Origin: an uncultured Prevotella sp.
Lineage (GTDB): Bacteria; Bacteroidota; Bacteroidia; Bacteroidales; Bacteroidaceae
Assembly (NCBI GenBank): GCA_945788545.1
Contig: CALZMK010000142.1
Location: 1-5,299, forward strand
DNA length: 5,299 bases
Reading direction: 5' to 3'
Shown: positions 1 through 5,299 of the stretch, piece by piece
How positions within the stretch are numbered: position 1 is the first letter of the stretch
Layout of the letters: every line of letters starts with the position of its first letter
The notes under the pieces: model-generated
The model's database searches: none
What the model was told of the DNA's origin: nothing
What the model saw: only the letters and a program-made list of their open reading frames with translations
Position numbers and translations under genes: made by a program

Positions 1-1066
1 CGAGTACGAACGGGATAAGGATGCTTACCACTGCCATGGTGCTGAGAGTGAAGTGGCTGCTGCAACTGTTGGCAATGGTGAGCGAGCTCTGCAGGTCGGC
101 ATTCGAGGGATAGTAGGCGGTGTTGTTCCATCCGGCGCTCAACAGAAGGGCGAGGACGGTGAGGACTGTGCCGATGCCTACGGGCCATATGCCGCAGATG
201 TAGGTCTTGCTGACGATGGTGCGGATGATGCCGTAGAGCACGAGGGCGACACCAGCGAGGAGCAGGACTGCGAGATACCACATGTCGAGGAAGTTGTGGA
301 GATACTTATAGGGCTCCATCATGATGACTCCCGAGGCGGGGTCGTAGGCATAGCCCTCCTTGCAGAGGGTGCGCACGAGGAACGCCACGAAGAGGAGGAC
401 GAAGGGAACGGCGCAGCCCACGAGGCGCACACTGCCGCGAGAGCGGATGTTCTCGTCGTTGACATTGTTCATCACATATAATATTCCAAGAATGCGTGCG
501 AGGAAGAATACGGCAAAGCCGAGGACGAGGTTCCACGGGTCGAGCAGGGCGTCGAGACCATGTGAGGCGTTAGCCCAAGAACTGATGACGGGTGAGGCGA
601 AACCATCCACGAGGTTGTCCTTGGCAACGACGAAGTTGCTGCCGTTGAAGAAGGTTGCCACGGCACCGCCAAGGAGCAATGGACCGAGGATGCCGTTGAG
701 CACGAGGAACCACTGGAAGGTGCGAGTGCCGAGCAGGTTGCCGAGCTTGTTCTGGAACTCATAGCTGACAGCCTGGAGCACGAAACTGAAGAGGATGAGC
801 ATCCAAAGCCAGTAGGCGCCACCGAAACTGGTGCTATAGAACAGCGGGAAGGAGGCGAAGAAGGCTCCGCCGAAGGTTACGAGAGTGGTGAATGTGAACT
901 CCCACTTGCGTCCCGTGCTGTTGACGATAAGACGACGCTCCTCGTCGGTGCGACCGAGCGAGAAGACCAATGAGTTGGCTCCCTGAACGAATAGCAGGAA
1001 GACCAACAGGGCTCCAAGAAGTGATACGAGGAACCACCAGTATTGTTGCAAAAATGTATAATCCAT
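1..1066 (-). CDS. cydB: Cytochrome bd quinol oxidase subunit II (CydB), 3' end cut by window
   Basis: CydB is the second large membrane subunit of cytochrome bd oxidase and pairs with the haem-bearing CydA in the inner membrane. The frame starts at ATG 1066-1064 (MDYTFLQQYWW) and is open for 355 codons to the left edge. Bacteroidetes CydB is usually about 380 residues, so only a short C-terminus is missing. About nine hydrophobic segments are visible, near residues 8-32, 57-78, 83-103, 118-140, 180-200, 212-233, 263-285, 292-311 and 341-355. Family-like motifs are the N-terminal LLGALLVFLLFVQGANSL, the DPWN near 177-180, the AGWNNTAYYPS near 311-321 and the SLTIANSCSSHFTL near 328-341. The gene lies 157 bp downstream of cydA on the same strand. 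That gap is long for a cyd operon and is filled with repeats. No strong Shine-Dalgarno site precedes the ATG, as is usual in Bacteroidetes. The identification is secure; the operon membership is inferred. Confidence 0.95.
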   Translation of the reverse strand, partial: MDYTFLQQYWWFLVSLLGALLVFLLFVQGANSLVFSLGRTDEERRLIVNSTGRKWEFTFTTLVTFGGAFFASFPLFYSTSFGGAYWLWMLILFSFVLQAVSYEFQNKLGNLLGTRTFQWFLVLNGILGPLLLGGAVATFFNGSNFVVAKDNLVDGFASPVISSWANASHGLDALLDPWNLVLGFAVFFLARILGILYVMNNVNDENIRSRGSVRLVGCAVPFVLLFVAFLVRTLCKEGYAYDPASGVIMMEPYKYLHNFLDMWYLAVLLLAGVALVLYGIIRTIVSKTYICGIWPVGIGTVLTVLALLLSAGWNNTAYYPSNADLQSSLTIANSCSSHFTLSTMAVVSILIPFVL

Positions 1067-1089
1067 AAGTCAAAATTTTCAATTTTGAG

Positions 1090-1121
1090 ATTAAAATATT
1101 AAAATATTAAAGTATTAAAGT
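1090..1121. repeat. Octamer tandem array, ATTAAAAT/ATTAAAGT x4
   Basis: Four perfect-length 8-bp units stand in a row on the plus strand: ATTAAAAT twice, then ATTAAAGT twice. They lie in the leader of cydB. The unit is close to a rotation of the octamers at 1138-1161 and 1182-1213, but in inverted orientation. The two sets can therefore pair with each other (see the hairpin at 1098-1159). Confidence 0.85.
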
Positions 1122-1159
1122 GCATTGCCGCAGCAACTTTAATTTTTTAATTCTTTAAT
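1098..1159 (-). other. Large imperfect hairpin in the cydB leader
   Basis: Opposed octamer arrays form a long inverted repeat. The paired blocks are 1098-1103 with 1154-1159, 1106-1111 with 1146-1151, and 1114-1120 with 1137-1143. A GC-rich tip, TTGC-CGCA-GCAA on the plus strand, spans 1125-1136. Two-base internal loops separate the blocks with an 8-bp period. The structure would sit about 30 nt upstream of the cydB start codon in the cydA-cydB mRNA. A role in message processing or in setting the cydA:cydB ratio is inference only. There is no T-tract that would make it a classical terminator. Confidence 0.6.
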
Positions 1160-1161
1160 TG
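1138..1161 (-). repeat. Octamer tandem array, (C/G/A)AATTAAA x3
   Basis: Read on the minus strand, the units are CAATTAAA, GAATTAAA and AAATTAAA. They directly follow the GC-rich TCGACGAAGT module (1156-1171 overlaps the first unit) and precede the TTGC/GCAA tip at 1125-1136. The array uses the same unit and orientation as the arrays at 1182-1213 and 2773-2804. Confidence 0.8.
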
Positions 1162-1171
1162 ACTTCGTCGA
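1156..1171 (-). repeat. 16-nt dispersed module, copy 1 (inverted match to 4184-4199)
   Basis: On the minus strand this reads TCGACGAAGTCAATTA, exactly as the plus strand does at 4184-4199. Both copies run straight into an AATTAR-type tandem array and lie in a spacer between two same-strand genes, in the direction of transcription. Just before it on the minus strand, another ACGAAGT occurs (around 1172-1178), giving a short direct repeat in this copy. Confidence 0.85.
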
Positions 1172-1181
1172 ACTTCGTTTC

Positions 1182-1213
1182 TTTAATTTTTTAATTCTTT
1201 AATTCTTTAATTT
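1182..1213 (-). repeat. Octamer tandem array, (A/G)AATTAAA x4, after cydA
   Basis: On the minus strand the units are AAATTAAA, GAATTAAA, GAATTAAA and AAATTAAA, 32 bp in all. The array starts right after the hairpin that covers the cydA stop codon. It is the first repeat block of the cydA-cydB spacer. Confidence 0.85.
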
Positions 1214-1236
1214 CCATCGGACCTTAGTCCGATGGA
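1213..1236 (-). other. Perfect hairpin spanning the cydA stop codon
   Basis: TCCATCGGAC at 1213-1222 on the plus strand pairs fully with GTCCGATGGA at 1227-1236, leaving a 4-nt loop (CTTA). The loop contains the TAA stop codon of cydA on the minus strand. With 10 bp, mostly G+C, it is the strongest compact stem in the window. The downstream minus-strand sequence is A-rich rather than U-rich, so it does not look like an intrinsic terminator for cydA. A 3'-end stabiliser or processing signal is possible but unproven. Confidence 0.75.
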
Positions 1237-2759
1237 CCCTGGTCCGATGGACCTTGTTTGATCGCTTTCAGCAGGATGTTGATTTCCACTGCGAGGAGGG
1301 TGGTGAAGAGGGCGAGGAAGATGAAGAAGGTGAGCATCACACTGCTGCTGCCGATGTTGCTGACACCTACCCATGTGGGCATCATGTCCTGGATGGCCCA
1401 AGGCTGGCGCCCGAATTCGGCGACAAGCCAACCCGACTCACTGCATATATATCCCAGGGGCAGAAGAGCTATTGCCGCCATGTGGAGAAGGCGCAGTTTG
1501 GGGCATGCCACGTCCTTGCGCCACGAGATGAATGTCATCACGGCGAAGAACAGGAGGAAGAGTGTGCCGAGACCCACCATCACGCGGAAGGCATAGAAGC
1601 ACAGTGGGATATAGGGCACGAGGTCGGCCTTGTCCTTGATATATCCATATCCGAAGTAGGGCATGTTGTCCTGTATGTCCTTGAGCAGTTGTGCCTTGCG
1701 CTCTGCGGGAACATCCTTCTGGCGATATTCCTTGAGTGCCGTGATGGCGATGCGTCCGCGGCGAATCTTCTCGTCGCTGTCCTTGAGCAGGTCGTTGACA
1801 CCGGGAACGAAGCCGTTGATGTCGCGGGTGGCGAGGAAGGAGAGGGCGTAGGGAATCTCGATTTTGAGAGCAGGATCCTCGCCCGAGGCATAGTCGGGTT
1901 GCTCGAAGGGATTGACGAGCGCGATGGCTGTAAGTCCCTGACCCTCACTGCCGTTATAGAGTGCCTCCATAGCAGCGAGTTTCATCGGTTGCACCTGTGC
2001 CACCATATATGCCGAGTGGTCGCCGGTGTGAAGGGCGAGCAGTGAGGCAACAAGTCCGACGGTAGAACCAATCTTGATACTCTTTGTTGCCAACTCGGTG
2101 TGGCGCTTCTTGAGAAGATACCAGCAGCTGACGGCAACGACGAAGATGGCGCCGATAATCCACGACGAGATGACGGTGTGGCAGAACTTGTCGATGGCGA
2201 AGGGCGAGAGAGCCACCTCGGCAAACGACGCCATCTCATTGCGCATGGTGTCGGGATTGAATGTGCAGCCCACGGGATATTGCATCCATGAGTTGGCAAC
2301 GAGAATCCACCATGCCGAGAAGGTTGCGCCGATGCCAGTGAGCCATGTGGCAGCGAGATGGAACCCGCGCGACACCTTCTTCCATCCGAAGAACATCACA
2401 GCCACGAAGGTGGATTCCATGAAGAACGCCACGATACCCTCGATGGCAAGCGGGGCTCCGAAGATGTCGCCCACAAACCATGAGTAGTTGCTCCAGTTGG
2501 TGCCAAACTCAAACTCGAGGATGATACCCGTGGCGACCCCCATGGCGAAGTTGATACCGAAGAGTTTCTGCCAGAACTGTGCAGCCTCTTTCCAGAATTC
2601 CTTGCCGGTGCGATACCAGCATGTCTCGATGATGCCCATGATGAGAGCGAGTCCCAGTGTGAGTGGGACGAAGAGCCAGTGATAGATGGCTGTGAGAGCG
2701 AATTGCGCGCGTGCCCAGTCTATCGCTGATGCGTCGATGTTTAGAATTGTTTCTGTCAT
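1224..2759 (-). CDS. cydA: Cytochrome bd quinol oxidase subunit I (CydA)
   Basis: CydA is the catalytic subunit of cytochrome bd, an inner-membrane oxidase that takes electrons from quinol, reduces O2 to water and does not pump protons. At 511 residues it is full length. Residues line up with E. coli CydA at a constant offset of 8 over the first half: H27 (H19, haem ligand in the high-spin pair), E107 and E115 (E99 and E107, proton path), H194 (H186, haem b558) and K260 and E265 (K252 and E257, quinol site). Further on, M394 in FRVMVG is the second b558 ligand and E448 lies just before the signature GRQPW (450-454). A long hydrophilic insert at about 270-380 indicates a long Q-loop. The start MTETILNIDA fits the family. 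DUF4492 lies 30 bp upstream. Oddly, the last nine residues (GPSDQGPSD) come from a 15-bp duplication, and a hairpin covers the stop codon. Confidence 0.98.
   Translation of the reverse strand: MTETILNIDASAIDWARAQFALTAIYHWLFVPLTLGLALIMGIIETCWYRTGKEFWKEAAQFWQKLFGINFAMGVATGIILEFEFGTNWSNYSWFVGDIFGAPLAIEGIVAFFMESTFVAVMFFGWKKVSRGFHLAATWLTGIGATFSAWWILVANSWMQYPVGCTFNPDTMRNEMASFAEVALSPFAIDKFCHTVISSWIIGAIFVVAVSCWYLLKKRHTELATKSIKIGSTVGLVASLLALHTGDHSAYMVAQVQPMKLAAMEALYNGSEGQGLTAIALVNPFEQPDYASGEDPALKIEIPYALSFLATRDINGFVPGVNDLLKDSDEKIRRGRIAITALKEYRQKDVPAERKAQLLKDIQDNMPYFGYGYIKDKADLVPYIPLCFYAFRVMVGLGTLFLLFFAVMTFISWRKDVACPKLRLLHMAAIALLPLGYICSESGWLVAEFGRQPWAIQDMMPTWVGVSNIGSSSVMLTFFIFLALFTTLLAVEINILLKAIKQGPSDQGPSD
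1227..1256 (-). repeat. 15-bp tandem duplication at the cydA 3' end
   Basis: Two 15-bp copies, 1227-1241 and 1242-1256, differ at one base (C at 1239, T at 1254). Read on the minus strand they encode QGPSD twice, giving the CydA C-terminus GPSDQGPSD. Each copy also holds a small palindrome, GGTCC-N3-GGACC or nearly so. The inverted third partial copy at 1213-1222 makes the stop-codon hairpin. Confidence 0.85.
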
Positions 2760-2772
2760 GTTATCTAAGTTT

Positions 2773-2804
2773 TTTAATTCTTTAATTTTTTAATCCTTTA
2801 ATTC
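2773..2804 (-). repeat. Octamer tandem array, (G/A)(A/G)ATTAAA x4, DUF4492-cydA junction
   Basis: On the minus strand the units are GAATTAAA, GGATTAAA, AAATTAAA and GAATTAAA. The first two overlap the 3' end of the DUF4492 gene: they encode its last residues and its TAA stop. The rest fills most of the 30-bp spacer before cydA. No promoter-like TAnnTTTG lies in the spacer, so co-transcription of the two genes is likely. Confidence 0.85.
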
Positions 2805-3008
2805 TTCACTAAGTATTTCCGTTGCCACGAATTCCGCCTTGTCGCCGTTGGGGGCATGCTCCGAGAGGAAGTCGGGGAAGAAGAAAACCTTGAGCACAGC
2901 GAAGATGATGATCAACTTGATGATGATGATCGTCCACAGCGTGCGCCCGATTTTCATGTTCCGGAAACCGTCGGCATATAGGTCGTATATTCGGTGTAAT
3001 TGTTTCAT
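2790..3008 (-). CDS. DUF4492 small membrane protein, first gene of the cyd group
   Basis: This 72-residue protein matches the DUF4492 family in length and layout. It has an amphipathic N-terminus (MKQLHRIYDLYADGFRNMKIG), one hydrophobic segment at about residues 23-44 interrupted by K31 and K40, an FFFPDFL motif at 42-48, and an acidic, hydrophilic tail. The family is known mainly as a small gene beside cydAB in Bacteroidetes, with no established function that I know of. Its place 30 bp upstream of cydA suggests an accessory or assembly subunit of the bd oxidase, loosely like CydX/CydH in other bacteria; that is inference. ATG 3008 is the only sensible ATG, because an in-frame TAG stands at 3020-3018. 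The last codons and the stop lie within an octamer repeat array. A promoter-like TAGATTTG lies only 4 bp before the ATG, so the mRNA may be leaderless. Confidence 0.88.
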   Translation of the reverse strand: MKQLHRIYDLYADGFRNMKIGRTLWTIIIIKLIIIFAVLKVFFFPDFLSEHAPNGDKAEFVATEILSEELKD

Positions 3009-3012
3009 GCTG

Positions 3013-3043
3013 CAAATCTAATAAAAAATAATCAAAACACAAT
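3013..3043 (-). promoter_or_regulatory. Predicted Bacteroidetes-type promoter for DUF4492-cydA-cydB
   Basis: Read on the minus strand, TAGATTTG at 3020-3013 matches the -7 consensus TAnnTTTG exactly. ATTG at 3043-3040, 19 nt upstream, matches three of four bases of the -33 element TTTG. The implied transcription start falls at about 3006-3009, on or next to the ATG at 3008. Confidence 0.5.
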
Positions 3044-3145
3044 GATAATATTTGTTTTTTTTGATTTTTTAAATATAAAATTGTTCCTTTTTTCCATAAT
3101 ATTCCTAAAAAATGAGGAAAGAGGGTAAATCTCAGCTGTTATTTC

Positions 3146-3176
3146 TTTGCCGTTTCAATGAAAATACGTAATTTTG
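3146..3176 (+). promoter_or_regulatory. Predicted Bacteroidetes-type promoter for the coiled-coil/tolC group
   Basis: TTTG at 3146-3149 and TAATTTTG at 3169-3176 match both the -33 (TTTG) and -7 (TAnnTTTG) elements of the Bacteroidetes housekeeping sigma factor, with a 19-nt spacer. Transcription would begin near 3181-3184 and give a 5' leader of about 40 nt before the ATG at 3221. Confidence 0.65.
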
Positions 3177-3193
3177 CAAGCGAATTCGAATTA

Positions 3194-3209
3194 ATATTAT
3201 ATATAATAT
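3194..3209. repeat. 16-bp perfect A/T palindrome in the 5' leader
   Basis: ATATTATATATAATAT is its own reverse complement. It lies between the predicted transcription start and the AAGG Shine-Dalgarno-like sequence at 3210-3213. Such palindromes arise easily in A/T-only sequence, so function is doubtful. Confidence 0.6.
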
Positions 3210-3220
3210 AAGGTAAAAAG

Positions 3221-4096
3221 ATGAACAAGAAATTGACTTATGCGCTTGTGGCAGTGATTGTGCTGCTGATGGCGGGTGGTGGGTATCTCTTTTTCAGTTT
3301 GACACAGCAGAAGCAGGCCAACAAGGAGATGCAGGAACTGGCGGAATTGGACAAGAAGGAGATGGAGAACGAGTACGAGCAGTTTGCCCGCCAATATAGC
3401 GAGATGAAAACTCAGATAAACAACGACTCCATCGTGGCGCAGCTCACCCAGGAGCAGATGAAGACCCAGCAACTGCTGGAGGAACTGAAGCGCGTGAAGA
3501 GCAGCGACGCAAGGGAGATAGCCCGACTGAAGAAGGAGCTTGCCACGATGAGGCGGGTGCTGAGGTCGTATGTGATGCAGATTGACTCGCTGAACAGGGT
3601 GAACGAGAACCTGACTGCGGAGAACACCCGCGTGAAGGGTCAGTATGCCGAGGCGACACGACAGATAGAGGGCTTGAGTTCGGAGAAGGCCAGTTTGTCG
3701 GAGAAGGTGGCGATAGCAGCCCAGTTGGACGCCACGGGTATCACGATGACTCCATTCAAGAAGGGAGGCAAGAAGTTGAAGAGAATGAAGGATTGCAAGA
3801 GCTTCCGCGTGGATTTCACTGTGGCTAAGAACGTTACGGCATCCAATGGTATGCGCACCTTCTATGTGCGTGTCACTAAGCCCAACGGACAGGCAATTGA
3901 GGATGGTGCATCTTTCACATTCGAGAATCGCACCCTGCGTTCCACTATGAGCAAGCAGGTGGAATACACTGGTGAGGCTCTCGCTCTGTCGTTGTATTAC
4001 AGTGGCAGTCAGGTGTATGAGCCTGGCACATATATCGTCAGCATCTTTGCTGATGGACACATGATTGGAAGCAGAACATTTTCATTTGAGAAATGA
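3221..4096 (+). CDS. Membrane-anchored coiled-coil protein of unknown function
   Basis: I cannot name this 291-residue protein. It starts MNKKLTYALV with two lysines, followed by one hydrophobic segment at about residues 5-27, so it is probably a single-pass inner-membrane protein with its bulk in the periplasm. Residues 29-170 are rich in E, K, Q and L with heptad-like spacing and almost no proline or glycine, as expected of a long coiled coil. A basic linker (about 180-190, KKGGKKLKRMK) leads to a C-terminal domain of about 100 residues (191-291). This alternates hydrophobic and polar residues, with FRVDFTV, TFYVRVTKPNG and EPGTYIVSIFADG, suggesting a small beta-sandwich. ATG 3221 follows AAGG at a reasonable distance. 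The tolC-like gene starts 113 bp downstream on the same strand, so a link to envelope or export is plausible. No lipoyl domain of a membrane fusion protein is visible. Confidence 0.85.
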   Translation: MNKKLTYALVAVIVLLMAGGGYLFFSLTQQKQANKEMQELAELDKKEMENEYEQFARQYSEMKTQINNDSIVAQLTQEQMKTQQLLEELKRVKSSDAREIARLKKELATMRRVLRSYVMQIDSLNRVNENLTAENTRVKGQYAEATRQIEGLSSEKASLSEKVAIAAQLDATGITMTPFKKGGKKLKRMKDCKSFRVDFTVAKNVTASNGMRTFYVRVTKPNGQAIEDGASFTFENRTLRSTMSKQVEYTGEALALSLYYSGSQVYEPGTYIVSIFADGHMIGSRTFSFEK

Positions 4097-4097
4097 G

Positions 4098-4122
4098 AAA
4101 TTAGGAATTAGGAATTAGGAAT
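4098..4122 (+). repeat. Heptamer tandem array, (A/G)AATTAG x3.5
   Basis: AAATTAG, GAATTAG, GAATTAG and a partial GAATT follow the TGA stop of the coiled-coil gene after a single base. The unit resembles the octamer of the cyd spacers but is one base shorter, with G in place of AA at its end. Confidence 0.85.
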
Positions 4123-4184
4123 TGCTGCGCAAACCGAATGCAGAGCCGAGCTTGCTCGAGCTATGCTGAGGTGAAGCCAGCAAT
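4119..4184 (+). repeat. GC-rich insert with terminal inverted repeats inside the heptamer array
   Basis: ATTGCTG at 4121-4127 is repeated inverted as CAGCAAT at 4178-4184, bounding 64 bp that interrupt the AT-rich heptamers. Inside are TTGC-TGC-GCAA (4122-4132), matching the tip of the cydB leader hairpin (TTGCTGCGGCAA on the minus strand), and CGAGC-TT-GCTCG at 4147-4158. No open reading frame of note is present. It could be a miniature dispersed element or a transcribed structured RNA module. Confidence 0.5.
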
Positions 4185-4199
4185 CGACGAAGTCAATTA
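4184..4199 (+). repeat. 16-nt dispersed module, copy 2 (inverted match to 1156-1171)
   Basis: TCGACGAAGTCAATTA here is identical to the minus strand at 1171-1156. It passes directly into CAATTAG-GAATTAG heptamers at 4194-4207, as the other copy passes into octamers. Confidence 0.85.
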
Positions 4200-4212
4200 G
4201 GAATTAGGAATG
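4194..4212 (+). promoter_or_regulatory. Heptamer repeats that form the ribosome binding region of the tolC-like gene
   Basis: CAATTAG (4194-4200) and GAATTAG (4201-4207) lead into GAATG, whose last three bases are the start codon at 4210-4212. AGGA at 4199-4202 lies 7 nt before the ATG and can act as a Shine-Dalgarno sequence. The repeat thus supplies the translation signal. Whether it is used is an inference. Confidence 0.55.
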
Positions 4213-5299
4213 AAAGGACTTTTTTCCATAGTATTATTATTGGGTGGCATATCATGCTCGCTTGATGCCGATGCCCAGGATGTCCTGTCGTTGGACAGTT
4301 GCCGAGCAATGGCACTGCGCAACAACAGGCAGATGGGTGTTGCCAAGGTGAAGCGTGACATGGCGCGCAATATGAGGAAGTCGGCAAGGACGAAATACCT
4401 GCCTCAGATAAATGCCTCGGGAGCGTATGTATATACGAGCAAACAGGTGTCGATACTGAGCGACGAGCAGAAACAGGCCCTCGGCAACATGGGTACTGCT
4501 GCCGGACAGGTGTTTGCCCAGATGGGACTTCCCAATACCGACGTGCTCGCCGGTATGCTCAATGGAGTGGGGGGTGGCATAGTGGATGCCTTCCACACCG
4601 ACACGCGCAATATGTTTGCAGCGTCGGTGATGCTCACCCAACCCGTGTTTATGGGTGGCAGTATCATTGCCATGAACAAAATTGCCGACCTGGGCGAGGA
4701 CATGGCAGCCAACCAAGCCGACGCCACCACGCAGGCCACGCTCTATAGCATCGACAATGCCTATTGGACGGTGGTGTCGCTGAAGCATAAGAAAAGACTG
4801 GCTGAGAGCTATCTCAACCTGGTAAAGAAACTCGACGGTGATGTCGGTAAGATGATTCGCGAGGGTGTGGCGACTCGTGCCGACGGACTGAAGGTGAGCG
4901 TGAAGGTGAACGAGGCTGAGATGACTCTGACACAGGTGGACGACGGACTGGCACTCGCCAAGATGCTGTTGTGCCAACTGTGCGGACTGGATGTGAACAA
5001 GGAAATCACTCTTGCCGACGAGGACAACGACCAACTCGCCACCGAGATTGAGGCTATTGCCGCCGATATCGAGAGTCAGGAGCAGACTGCGGGCGACAAT
5101 CGTCCCGAACTGAAGATGCTGCAAAATGTAGTGGATATCAGTAGGCAGGCTGTGAATGTGGCGAAGGCGGGACATATGCCCAAGGTGATGCTCACGGGCG
5201 GATACACCGCCACCAATCCCAATGTCTATAACGGGTTCAGTCGCAGTTTCGCGGGGGTATGGAACATCGGAGTGATGGTGACAGTGCCCGTGTGGAACT
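4210..5299 (+). CDS. TolC-family outer-membrane efflux protein, 3' end cut by window
   Basis: TolC-family proteins form the trimeric outer-membrane channel and periplasmic tunnel of tripartite exporters, working with a periplasmic adaptor and an inner-membrane ABC, RND or MFS pump. The frame is open for 363 codons to the right edge; the family is usually about 430-490 residues, so roughly the last quarter is missing. Residues 1-22 look like a signal peptide, with cleavage likely after ADA (22); C16 does not sit in a good lipobox. The N-terminal helix region LSLDSCRAMALRNNRQM (26-42) and the KYLPQI that follows are typical of the family. So are LTQPVFMGGSIIAMNKIADL in the middle and the second half-repeat starting near NRPELKML, ending in a beta-strand-like VMVTVPVWN at the edge. 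Substrate cannot be told. Adaptor and pump genes would be expected just beyond 5299. The start was chosen for the signal peptide and the AGGA 7 nt upstream. Confidence 0.93.
   Translation, partial: MKGLFSIVLLLGGISCSLDADAQDVLSLDSCRAMALRNNRQMGVAKVKRDMARNMRKSARTKYLPQINASGAYVYTSKQVSILSDEQKQALGNMGTAAGQVFAQMGLPNTDVLAGMLNGVGGGIVDAFHTDTRNMFAASVMLTQPVFMGGSIIAMNKIADLGEDMAANQADATTQATLYSIDNAYWTVVSLKHKKRLAESYLNLVKKLDGDVGKMIREGVATRADGLKVSVKVNEAEMTLTQVDDGLALAKMLLCQLCGLDVNKEITLADEDNDQLATEIEAIAADIESQEQTAGDNRPELKMLQNVVDISRQAVNVAKAGHMPKVMLTGGYTATNPNVYNGFSRSFAGVWNIGVMVTVPVWN

Follow-up and report, generated by a model that had tools for sequence, protein, structure and literature searches.

A structured 75-nt repeat in the stop-codon arrays of Prevotella is probably a small non-autonomous mobile element

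The sequence analyzed here, a stretch of 5,299 nucleotides from an uncultured Prevotella sp. (contig CALZMK010000142.1 of assembly GCA_945788545.1; hereinafter, the window), carries the 16-mer TCGACGAAGTCAATTA in exact copies in two intergenic spacers, at 1156-1171 on the minus strand (spacer 1) and at 4184-4199 on the plus strand (spacer 2). This pair heads the list of inverted repeat pairs in the window and is not expected by chance: 200 dinucleotide-preserving shuffles of the window yielded no match with one mismatch or fewer. What kind of element do the two spacers share? A sequence-only reading of the window regarded them as two copies of one composite element in which the order of the modules had been swapped. 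The common 16-mer and the short tandem arrays of the AATTAR type that it described in both spacers are indeed there; the supposed swap reflects two different modules with a common tail and no rearrangement of one element, and only spacer 2 (4097-4209) holds the 75-nt unit (AATTGCTG...GAAGTC) that is the main subject of this analysis. The unit, at 4120-4194, is most likely a selfish structured repeat and probably represents one copy of a non-autonomous mobile family, similar in kind to miniature inverted-repeat transposable elements (MITEs), repetitive extragenic palindromes (REPs) and BOX elements, that extends across Prevotella and genomes of the same GTDB family.

Copy number and distribution of the repeat

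A BLAST search with the 81-nt stretch 4119-4199 is positive for each of the 10 nearest relatives' genomes, with 1 to 55 matches per genome; seven copies, of which five are in G003 and two are in G005, are identical over the full 81 nt (genomes are denoted by G and loci by L throughout). A covariance model, with 150 candidates scored per genome so that the counts are lower bounds, yields at E ≤ 1e-4 at least 15 matches in G001, 14 in G002, 15 in G003, 41 in G004, 45 in G005 and 27 in G006; the named carriers include Prevotella sp. P5-92 with 27 model matches, Xylanibacter brevis ATCC 19188 with 6, and Hoylesella pleuritidis JCM 14110 with 1. In wider samples, for which at most 18 candidates were scored per genome and the counts are again lower bounds, the window copy used as a DNA query matches at least 119 of the 299 genomes from the genus of G005 (E ≤ 0.001), and the model matches at least 160 of the 251 genomes of the family (E ≤ 1e-4) and at least 2 of the 296 genomes of the phylum (E ≤ 1e-6), one of which is G005. 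Covariance models of Rfam 15 give no match in the window up to an E-value of 1, and in 16 distant loci their only hits, all located outside the repeat, are to a tRNA and to sub-threshold microRNA models. The repeat is of interest for such a spread within one GTDB family in the absence of an Rfam match.

The detailed comparison involves 92 near-full copies, namely, the window copy and 91 copies from 80 regions picked among the best BLAST matches listed; 25 other BLAST pieces, which are partial, composite or diverged, are outside these counts. Most of the genomes searched are drafts, and genes were called as the longest open reading frames (ORFs), with no trained gene finder. Judging by the copies and their flanks, the repeating part reads AATK-GCTGCGC...CAGCNATCGACGAAGTC, followed by AATK. 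Tandem neighbors are spaced by 75, 75, 76, 82, 82, 82, 82 and 89 nt, i.e., by about 75 nt plus zero, one or two heptamers, and these spacings, together with the comparison of a SpoIID-domain gene among species (see below), set the length of the unit at 75 nt. An overlap of more than 40 nt with a called ORF is seen in only 5 of the 92 copies. The earlier proposal of a dispersed, mostly intergenic family holds, and neither of the two outcomes named in the sequence-only reading as fatal to it, the presence of only one or two copies or a lack of intergenic preference, was found. An origin from a phage or plasmid was also considered and is without support: window positions 4110-4201 have no blastn match in either of two collections, and a single scan of viral_contigs with the outer membrane efflux protein (OEP) encoded downstream of the unit detects no relative.

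A conserved hairpin

The copies share a conserved imperfect hairpin that consists of a closing stem, a tandem G.A step and a CTTG-type loop, often followed by a small hairpin tail, and this structure is strongly supported by covariation. Two alignments were analyzed. Alignment A1 includes 72 sequences (of the 92 near-full copies, 90 have the whole 81 nt inside the stretch and 74 of these are distinct; L087, identical in sequence to the window copy, is represented by the latter, and two copies with internal deletions, L101:194-265 and L156, were left out), and alignment A2 includes 39 distant matches from 29 loci, one genome per locus. In A1, 97.1% of the cells are standard pairs, compared to 21.5-40.5% in slid controls, and 101 cells are changed on both sides, compared to 38.5 ± 4.2 after shuffling. 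For example, column 5-66 of the closing stem contains 35 UA, 29 GC, 1 AU and 2 GU pairs, with 5 other combinations, and the apical column 30-39 contains 41 GC, 27 AU and 3 GU pairs, with a single other combination. In A2, which was fitted to the model and hence is biased towards it, 97.0% of the cells are paired, 20 of the 23 pairs are changed on both sides, and double changes number 200, compared to 57.6 ± 6.8 after shuffling. The closing stem varies widely between copies and yet pairs within each of them: among 81 distinct elements, with G.U counted, the arms of the same copy pair over 6.75 of 7 positions, compared to 3.88 of 7 for arms combined across genomes. Directly after the 3' arm, a hairpin of 3-6 bp is present in 19 of 44 distant copies with distinct arms (shuffled mean, 5.69). 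The predicted folding energy of the unit is -28.8 kcal/mol (z -3.17) for the sense RNA and -27.5 (z -2.33) for the antisense RNA; as DNA, the two strands fold at -15.5 (z -2.45) and -13.9 (z -1.64), respectively. Thus, of the structured RNA potential suggested previously, the structure is supported by covariation, and the relevant molecule may be either RNA or single-stranded DNA.

Arrays, stop codons and orientation

The arrays on both sides of the unit in spacer 2 have 7-nt units, AATTAGG, and those of spacer 1 have 8-nt units, AATTAAAG. On the left, 77 of 90 copies adjoin an exact-phase heptamer, and when either side is counted the number rises to 85; the background frequency of a matching 7-mer is 0.0023 of positions per strand. 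The variable letter of the array is the same as the unit's own letter in 72 of the 77 copies, and in A1 this position pairs with the 3' arm.

Rows of at least three A(A/G)T(T/G)A(A/G)(A/G) units were surveyed in 783 kb of contigs from G001 (the first contigs in the assembly), G004 and G005 (contigs chosen for known copies). Of the 52 arrays detected, 35 are located between same-strand genes, 6 between convergent genes and 5 between divergent genes, 4 are reversed within a run of genes, and 2 are in genes or at edges; 20 mononucleotide shuffles of the surveyed spacers contain none. Among spacers of 20-600 nt, arrays alone mark 34 of the 280 between same-direction genes, 5 of the 58 convergent ones and 3 of the 75 divergent ones. 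Intergenic arrays are sense to the upstream gene in 41 of 50 cases. Among these 41, 24 start ahead of the stop-codon end and another 9 no more than 10 nt past it; in total, 33 start between 20 nt before and 10 nt after this point, and 21 start within 10 nt of it in either direction, compared to 12 in one random placement. The array units contain TAA, TAG or TGA so that, with a period of 7 or 8, stop codons are present in all three frames.

The repeat shows the same preference. In the surveyed contigs, 15 of 21 BLAST pieces are between same-strand genes, one each is between convergent and divergent genes, and 4 are in genes or at edges; among the 92 copies, 66 are between same-strand genes, 13 are convergent, 3 are reversed in a run, 1 is divergent, and 9 are at the edge of a stretch. 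Where an upstream gene was called (86 copies), it is on the same strand as the copy in 82 cases, in agreement with the earlier claim that direction follows the genes; in the window's clade, the orientation of the copies follows that of the arrays.

These observations could also be interpreted in terms of a functional RNA element, i.e., a hairpin between co-transcribed genes that modulates termination, translation or mRNA stability for the flanking genes and is maintained by selection. Strong covariation in both A1 and A2, the 82 copies that are sense to the upstream gene and the 66 copies with same-strand genes on both sides are all compatible with such a role; furthermore, the available part of one report describes effects on translation of REPs located near stop codons in Escherichia coli (PMC12306157). 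However, the arrays themselves are oriented in this way, and orientation is mixed in the distant genomes G456, G366 and G531, where the upstream gene is opposite in 16 of 24 cases. Together with the comparison of orthologous spacers described below, this makes an RNA element under selection decidedly unlikely as the explanation of the family, although for single copies a regulatory or host role is possible.

Two further observations on arrays and stop codons were made in passing. In L308, four copies (4709-4791, 6506-6588, 7482-7564 and 8485-8567), about 1-2 kb apart, each supply the TGA stop of the preceding gene; three of these genes resemble one another, and the fourth presumably encodes a kinase-like protein. 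Other short-period arrays, such as those of ACACAGAG units, are present in the contigs of G001, G004 and G005 (L175-L214, 783 kb).

Occupied and empty orthologous sites

A short motif search was used to classify orthologous spacers as occupied or empty. Of the 83 copies with both flanks, 28 have a comparable spacer in another genome; 7 of these copies, at four sites, are shared and 21 are not, and 35 of the 42 copy-by-genome comparisons show an empty site. In the closest empty pair, the repeat in L139 (G001) corresponds to a plain array in L147 (G002), with flanks that are 97 and 96% identical. At the site of the window copy, nine relatives lack the unit, and five of them (L001-L005) have short arrays in its place. 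The 21 copies that are not shared, compared to 7 that are, argue against maintenance of the repeat as an RNA element. The repeat is thus short, abundant, and present or absent at orthologous sites, as are MITEs, and the arms of its stem behave like inverted ends.

The SpoIID-domain gene reveals the most complete series of states. There is no array in G006-G010; G001 and G005 have arrays of (AATTAGG)-type and (AATTAAG)-type units, respectively, both in frame; G002 has an array with another module; and G003 and G004 have an array with the unit, read through in frame. Bar point differences, the G003 sequence is that of G001 with the 75-nt unit between two heptamers. The repeat, then, quickly alters the junctions where one gene stops and the next one starts; one gene has incorporated it in frame.

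This series is also an argument for a scenario without transposition, in which slippage around stop codons generates the arrays and homologous exchange between them is the only way for the unit to spread. The four outcomes at the SpoIID-gene site (two pure kinds of array, array with the 75-nt unit, and array with another module) are what this scenario would predict, as are the in-phase heptamers that adjoin 85 of 90 copies on one or both sides and the match to the local array letter in 72 of 77. The distant members of the family speak against it.

Target duplication and proposed pairing of the arm with the target

Distant members in G456, G366, G379 and G531 are located outside heptamer arrays, and in two distant species (G379 and G531) the element is flanked by a 7-8 bp target duplication that spans the stop codon. 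In G379, the element is at the stop of a NUDIX-domain gene, in the context ...GG AATTTTA (element) AATTTTA AACAG.... The empty sites of this gene read GGAGTTTTGAACAG in G339, GGAATTTTAAACCC in G360 and GGAATTTTGAAAAG in G493; AATTTTA, duplicated in G379, is found once in G360, and close variants of it are found once each in G339 and G493. Among 12 NUDIX loci read (a second copy of the gene in G379, 95% identical, was left out), the element has the same place and the same arms in G379 and G313 and is absent in ten. In G531, the element is at the stop of a succinate dehydrogenase/fumarate reductase flavoprotein gene, in the context AAG AACTAATG (element) AACTAATG AATT...; the full AACTAATG is present once in G017, and of 14 other readable relatives, with one of the 16 loci incomplete, 11 end in AA(C/T)-TAA, 2 in -TAG and 1 in -TGA. 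Two clean target duplications outside arrays render spread without transposition unlikely.

In both species, the inner 3' arm is complementary to the duplicated target, CTAAAAT over 6 nt in G379 and CATTAGT over 7 nt in G531, so that the closing stem pairs the target with a complementary arm inside the element. An excess of such matches over permutation is found among the distant copies as a group. Of 81 elements, 44 non-tandem ones with distinct arms were compared (19 judged to be tandem were dropped, and elements with identical arms were counted once). The part of the arm that is repeated in the right flank of the same copy averages 4.75 nt, a value reached in none of 2,000 permutations (mean of permuted pairs, 3.88 nt); recurrence over 6 nt or more is found in 9 cases, compared to 2.5 in permuted pairs, and was reached in 1 of 2,000.

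The target duplication and the target pairing in these clades suggest true insertion. A more specific and tentative proposal, which we rate as rather doubtful, is that insertion is directed or finished by base pairing with the target: the duplicated target, sometimes including the stop codon, would become the 5' arm, with the complementary arm of 6-7 nt inside the element, and the stop-codon-array cassette of the window would be a clade-specific descendant of such elements. The arm could act as a guide in the choice of the site; alternatively, it could be a strand copied from that site by fold-back synthesis. Four clear arm types, as well as a truncated copy, are represented among the seven model hits in G531, a single 3.55-Mb contig. 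None of the other hits has the arm seen at the flavoprotein gene, and the evidence therefore leans towards copying. If target pairing is confirmed, the repeat would be a small mobile element that makes its own stem from the insertion site, a mechanism that is testable in cultured strains.

A separate observation concerns the arms in L256-L262 (G366) and L315-L321 (G006), which are often CAAAGATA or similar. Such arms correspond to what we take to be the reverse complement of the Bacteroidetes -7 promoter box, and these copies may be located at promoters.

Mode of spread

Target pairing by a folded element brings to mind movement on a folded single strand by a REP-associated tyrosine transposase (RAYT) or another Y1 transposase of the IS200/IS605 kind, as in REP/REPIN-type elements. 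A hairpin with a target-pairing arm resembles guide-directed transposition of single-stranded DNA, and matches to Y1 (HUH) transposases are present in 11 of 15 high-copy genomes (10 of these over the curated cut-off), compared to 4 of 15 genomes without model hits, and in 6 of 10 close relatives. However, four of the 15 high-copy drafts have no Y1 match; only one of 33 Y1 loci is near a clear copy (L273, E 1.6e-12), and two are near weak ones (E 0.048 and 0.54); the GTAG tag is lacking near the ends in nearly all copies (see below); and IS200/IS605 insertions, to our knowledge, are not expected to duplicate the target. Taken together, this makes the involvement of Y1 enzymes very improbable.

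Several observations weigh against the interpretation of the family as mobile elements that insert by target pairing. No transposase was found in a search for autonomous partners that covered Y1 genes only, and, apart from the sparse association of Y1 loci with copies, some high-copy drafts, e.g., G456 and G309, yield no Y1 match. In 21 of the 44 distant copies, the arm and flank share less than 5 nt, with no clear target duplication, and the mixed orientation in distant genomes departs from the pattern of the window's clade. The sense and antisense RNA folds are nearly equal, so that either strand may be the relevant one, and the counts of G.U and A.C cells, 21 compared to 14, are compatible with both RNA and DNA. 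Most genomes are drafts, and array regions are prone to misassembly. Finally, the GCTG of the left arm is absent from the empty array of the SpoIID-domain gene; therefore, in the window's clade, the left arm is carried along by the unit instead of being formed from the target.

Exchange between arrays would account for the features seen in this clade, namely, the phase, the match to the array, the direction and the left arm that moves together with the unit. Thus, a non-autonomous mobile repeat remains the preferred interpretation, with two modes of spread: the unit probably moves as a cassette of stop-codon arrays in the window's clade and by insertion at stem-matching sites elsewhere. Under the mechanism that we envisage, the element would insert via a folded single strand, with the 3' arm base-pairing with the target, target and 3' arm together forming the closing stem, and a host or trans-acting enzyme performing the joining. 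Short-homology exchange would additionally transfer whole cassettes from one to another of the many AATKARG arrays in the window's clade. When transcribed, a copy would place a hairpin between two genes of one mRNA, with some effect or none.

Relation to known repeats

The family seems to be undescribed. Six sequence strings of the repeat or its arrays were not found in the literature searched, in which subscription papers and supplements are thinly covered, and within this partial coverage the precedents are of a general kind only. Porphyromonas gingivalis belongs to a bacterial group related to that of the window. Its BrickBuilt element is described, in the accessible passages, as an intergenic MITE with internal tandem repeats, with a 23-nt tandem unit, a leader and a tail, located 49-591 nt from genes, in 19 copies in one strain (PMC4596501); in the present family, the 7-nt array lies externally to the unit and in many cases reaches the stop codon. 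The BOX elements of Streptococcus pneumoniae are likewise small interspersed modular repeats with a predicted RNA fold, nested with other repeats and variable in the number of modules. By the description in the passages available, they are built of boxA, boxB and boxC, so that the likeness is limited to the modular layout, and these passages contain neither stop-codon-anchored 7-nt arrays nor a target-matching stem (PMC3049150). The TAACTGA heptamers of Beggiatoaceae, Cyanobacteria and some Bacteroidetes are intergenic 7-nt direct repeats that differ between orthologous sites in steps of 7 nt, with some located in ORFs; unlike the arrays described here, they consist of a single invariant heptamer and, in the main genome analyzed, are located for the most part immediately before start codons; a hairpin cassette does not figure in the portions of the source consulted (PMC4679880). 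Among the thousands of RNA motifs reported for microbiomes in another source seen in part, this family could be included (PMC8040213).

The GTAG- and CGTC-tagged REPs of the RAYT REPtrons are, in the sections accessible, small, high-copy palindromic repeats thought to be moved by tyrosine transposases; they are 20-40 nt long (PMC3733652), compared to 75 nt, with bulges and a second hairpin, for the present unit. On the other strand, CGTC adjoins the stem in 56 of the 72 close copies, compared to 2 of the 39 distant ones. A GTAG-tagged REP was rejected, with GTAG or CTAC in the first 12 or last 14 nt in only 2 of 72 sequences in A1 and 3 of 39 in A2, and the location on both sides of a Y1 transposase gene that characterizes RAYT-associated REPs has its only counterpart in the single locus of 33 mentioned above. 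Integron attC sites were rejected as well. Their core-site motifs are RYYYAAC and GTTRRRY; on the sense strand these occur in 0 of 72 and 0 of 39 sequences, and both motifs on the other strand also in 0 of 72 and 0 of 39. The copies on contig C76 of G002 are nonetheless placed after genes.

Spacer 1 and other modules in the arrays

The module AAACGAAGTTCGACGAAGTC of spacer 1 recurs elsewhere without the 75-nt unit, with which it shares only the 3' tail. Because G005 carries a full unit instead of this module at two sites, the cydA-cydB spacer (L005/L102) and the site of L179 (L097), it could represent either a remnant or an alternative cassette. The RNA fold of 1083-1212 on the minus strand (-19.7 kcal/mol, z -2.69) includes the inverted octamer array as a long hairpin. 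The TTGC-loop-GCAA strings noted previously in both spacers, TTGCTGCGGCAA and TTGCTGCGCAA (4122-4132, plus strand), are present, but no separate mini-hairpin exists in spacer 2, where TTGCTGCGCAA is the start of the long stem and its partner, CAGCAAT, is about 50 nt downstream.

Further modules occur in such arrays. In the composite copies L143 (2480-2800), L144, L145, L092 and L104, a second, related 75-nt module is nested within the unit, after CTGA, and the orthologous copy L150 is free of it. Another small module, of the TTCGGCGACCGAAGGG type, is found in the same arrays in L110, L125, L197 (G004) and L299 (G002), and once in frame inside the SpoIID-domain gene.

Genes and features of the window

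Table 1. Features of the window and the basis for their assignment
Feature	Position	Strand	Basis or remark
75-nt repeat unit, complete copy	4120..4194	+	Exact copies, tandem spacings, SpoIID-gene comparison
Closing stem, 5' arm ATTGCTG	4121..4127	+	Pairs with 4178-4184
Closing stem, 3' arm CAGCAAT	4178..4184	+	Alignment A1; complementary to the target duplication in two distant members
Apical hairpin CGAGCTTGCTCG, CTTG loop	4147..4158	+	Alignment A1
Tail mini-hairpin GAC-GAA-GTC, end of unit, common to spacer 1	4186..4194	+	RNA fold
Heptamer array left of unit, overlaps TGA stop (4094-4096) of upstream gene	4092..4119	+	Array scan, Tandem Repeats Finder (TRF)
Heptamer array right of unit, into start codon at 4210	4195..4215	+	Array scan, TRF
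Small module AAACGAAGTTCGACGAAGTC + AATTA, holds the 16-mer, in octamer array	1156..1180	-	Also in L138, L179 (G001), twice in L002 (G002)
Octamer array AATTAAAG, inverted array hairpin with 1083-1120	1137..1160	-	Array scan, TRF; RNA fold
Octamer array AATTAAAG after cydA stop	1181..1212	-	Array scan, TRF
TTGCTGCGGCAA at tip of inverted octamer array	1125..1136	-	Read from sequence; paired in RNA fold
Third array spacer, DUF4492 gene to cydA, DUF4492 stop codon inside	2772..2810	-	Array scan, TRF
cydB, cytochrome bd oxidase subunit II	2..1066	-	Pfam; cut by window end
cydA, cytochrome bd oxidase subunit I	1224..2759	-	Pfam
DUF4492 gene	Beyond spacer 2772-2810 from cydA	-	Pfam
Gene for 291-aa protein, upstream of unit	3221..4096	+	Without Pfam match
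OEP gene, downstream of unit	4210..5298	+	Pfam; cut by window end

The window is, judging by its protein sequences, part of a Prevotella-type genome because all 56 relatives of the 3221-4096 protein in genome_contigs come from Prevotella, Prevotellaceae or close genera, except for one labeled 'uncultured bacterium'. All three same-strand gene junctions contain short tandem arrays (2772-2810, 1137-1212 and 4092-4215). The array scan detects none in the divergent spacer 3009-3220, where TRF reports two short A+T-rich rows with periods of 9 and 10. The third array spacer (2772-2810), which is not mentioned in the sequence-only reading, is an octamer array that supplies the stop codon and the last residues of the DUF4492 gene. 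Separately, the 3' end of cydA (1213-1253) is a 15-nt tandem repeat with inverted parts that encodes the C-terminus GPSDQGPSD; the TAA stop codon is in the second copy of this repeat, and the ends of cydA differ in relatives.

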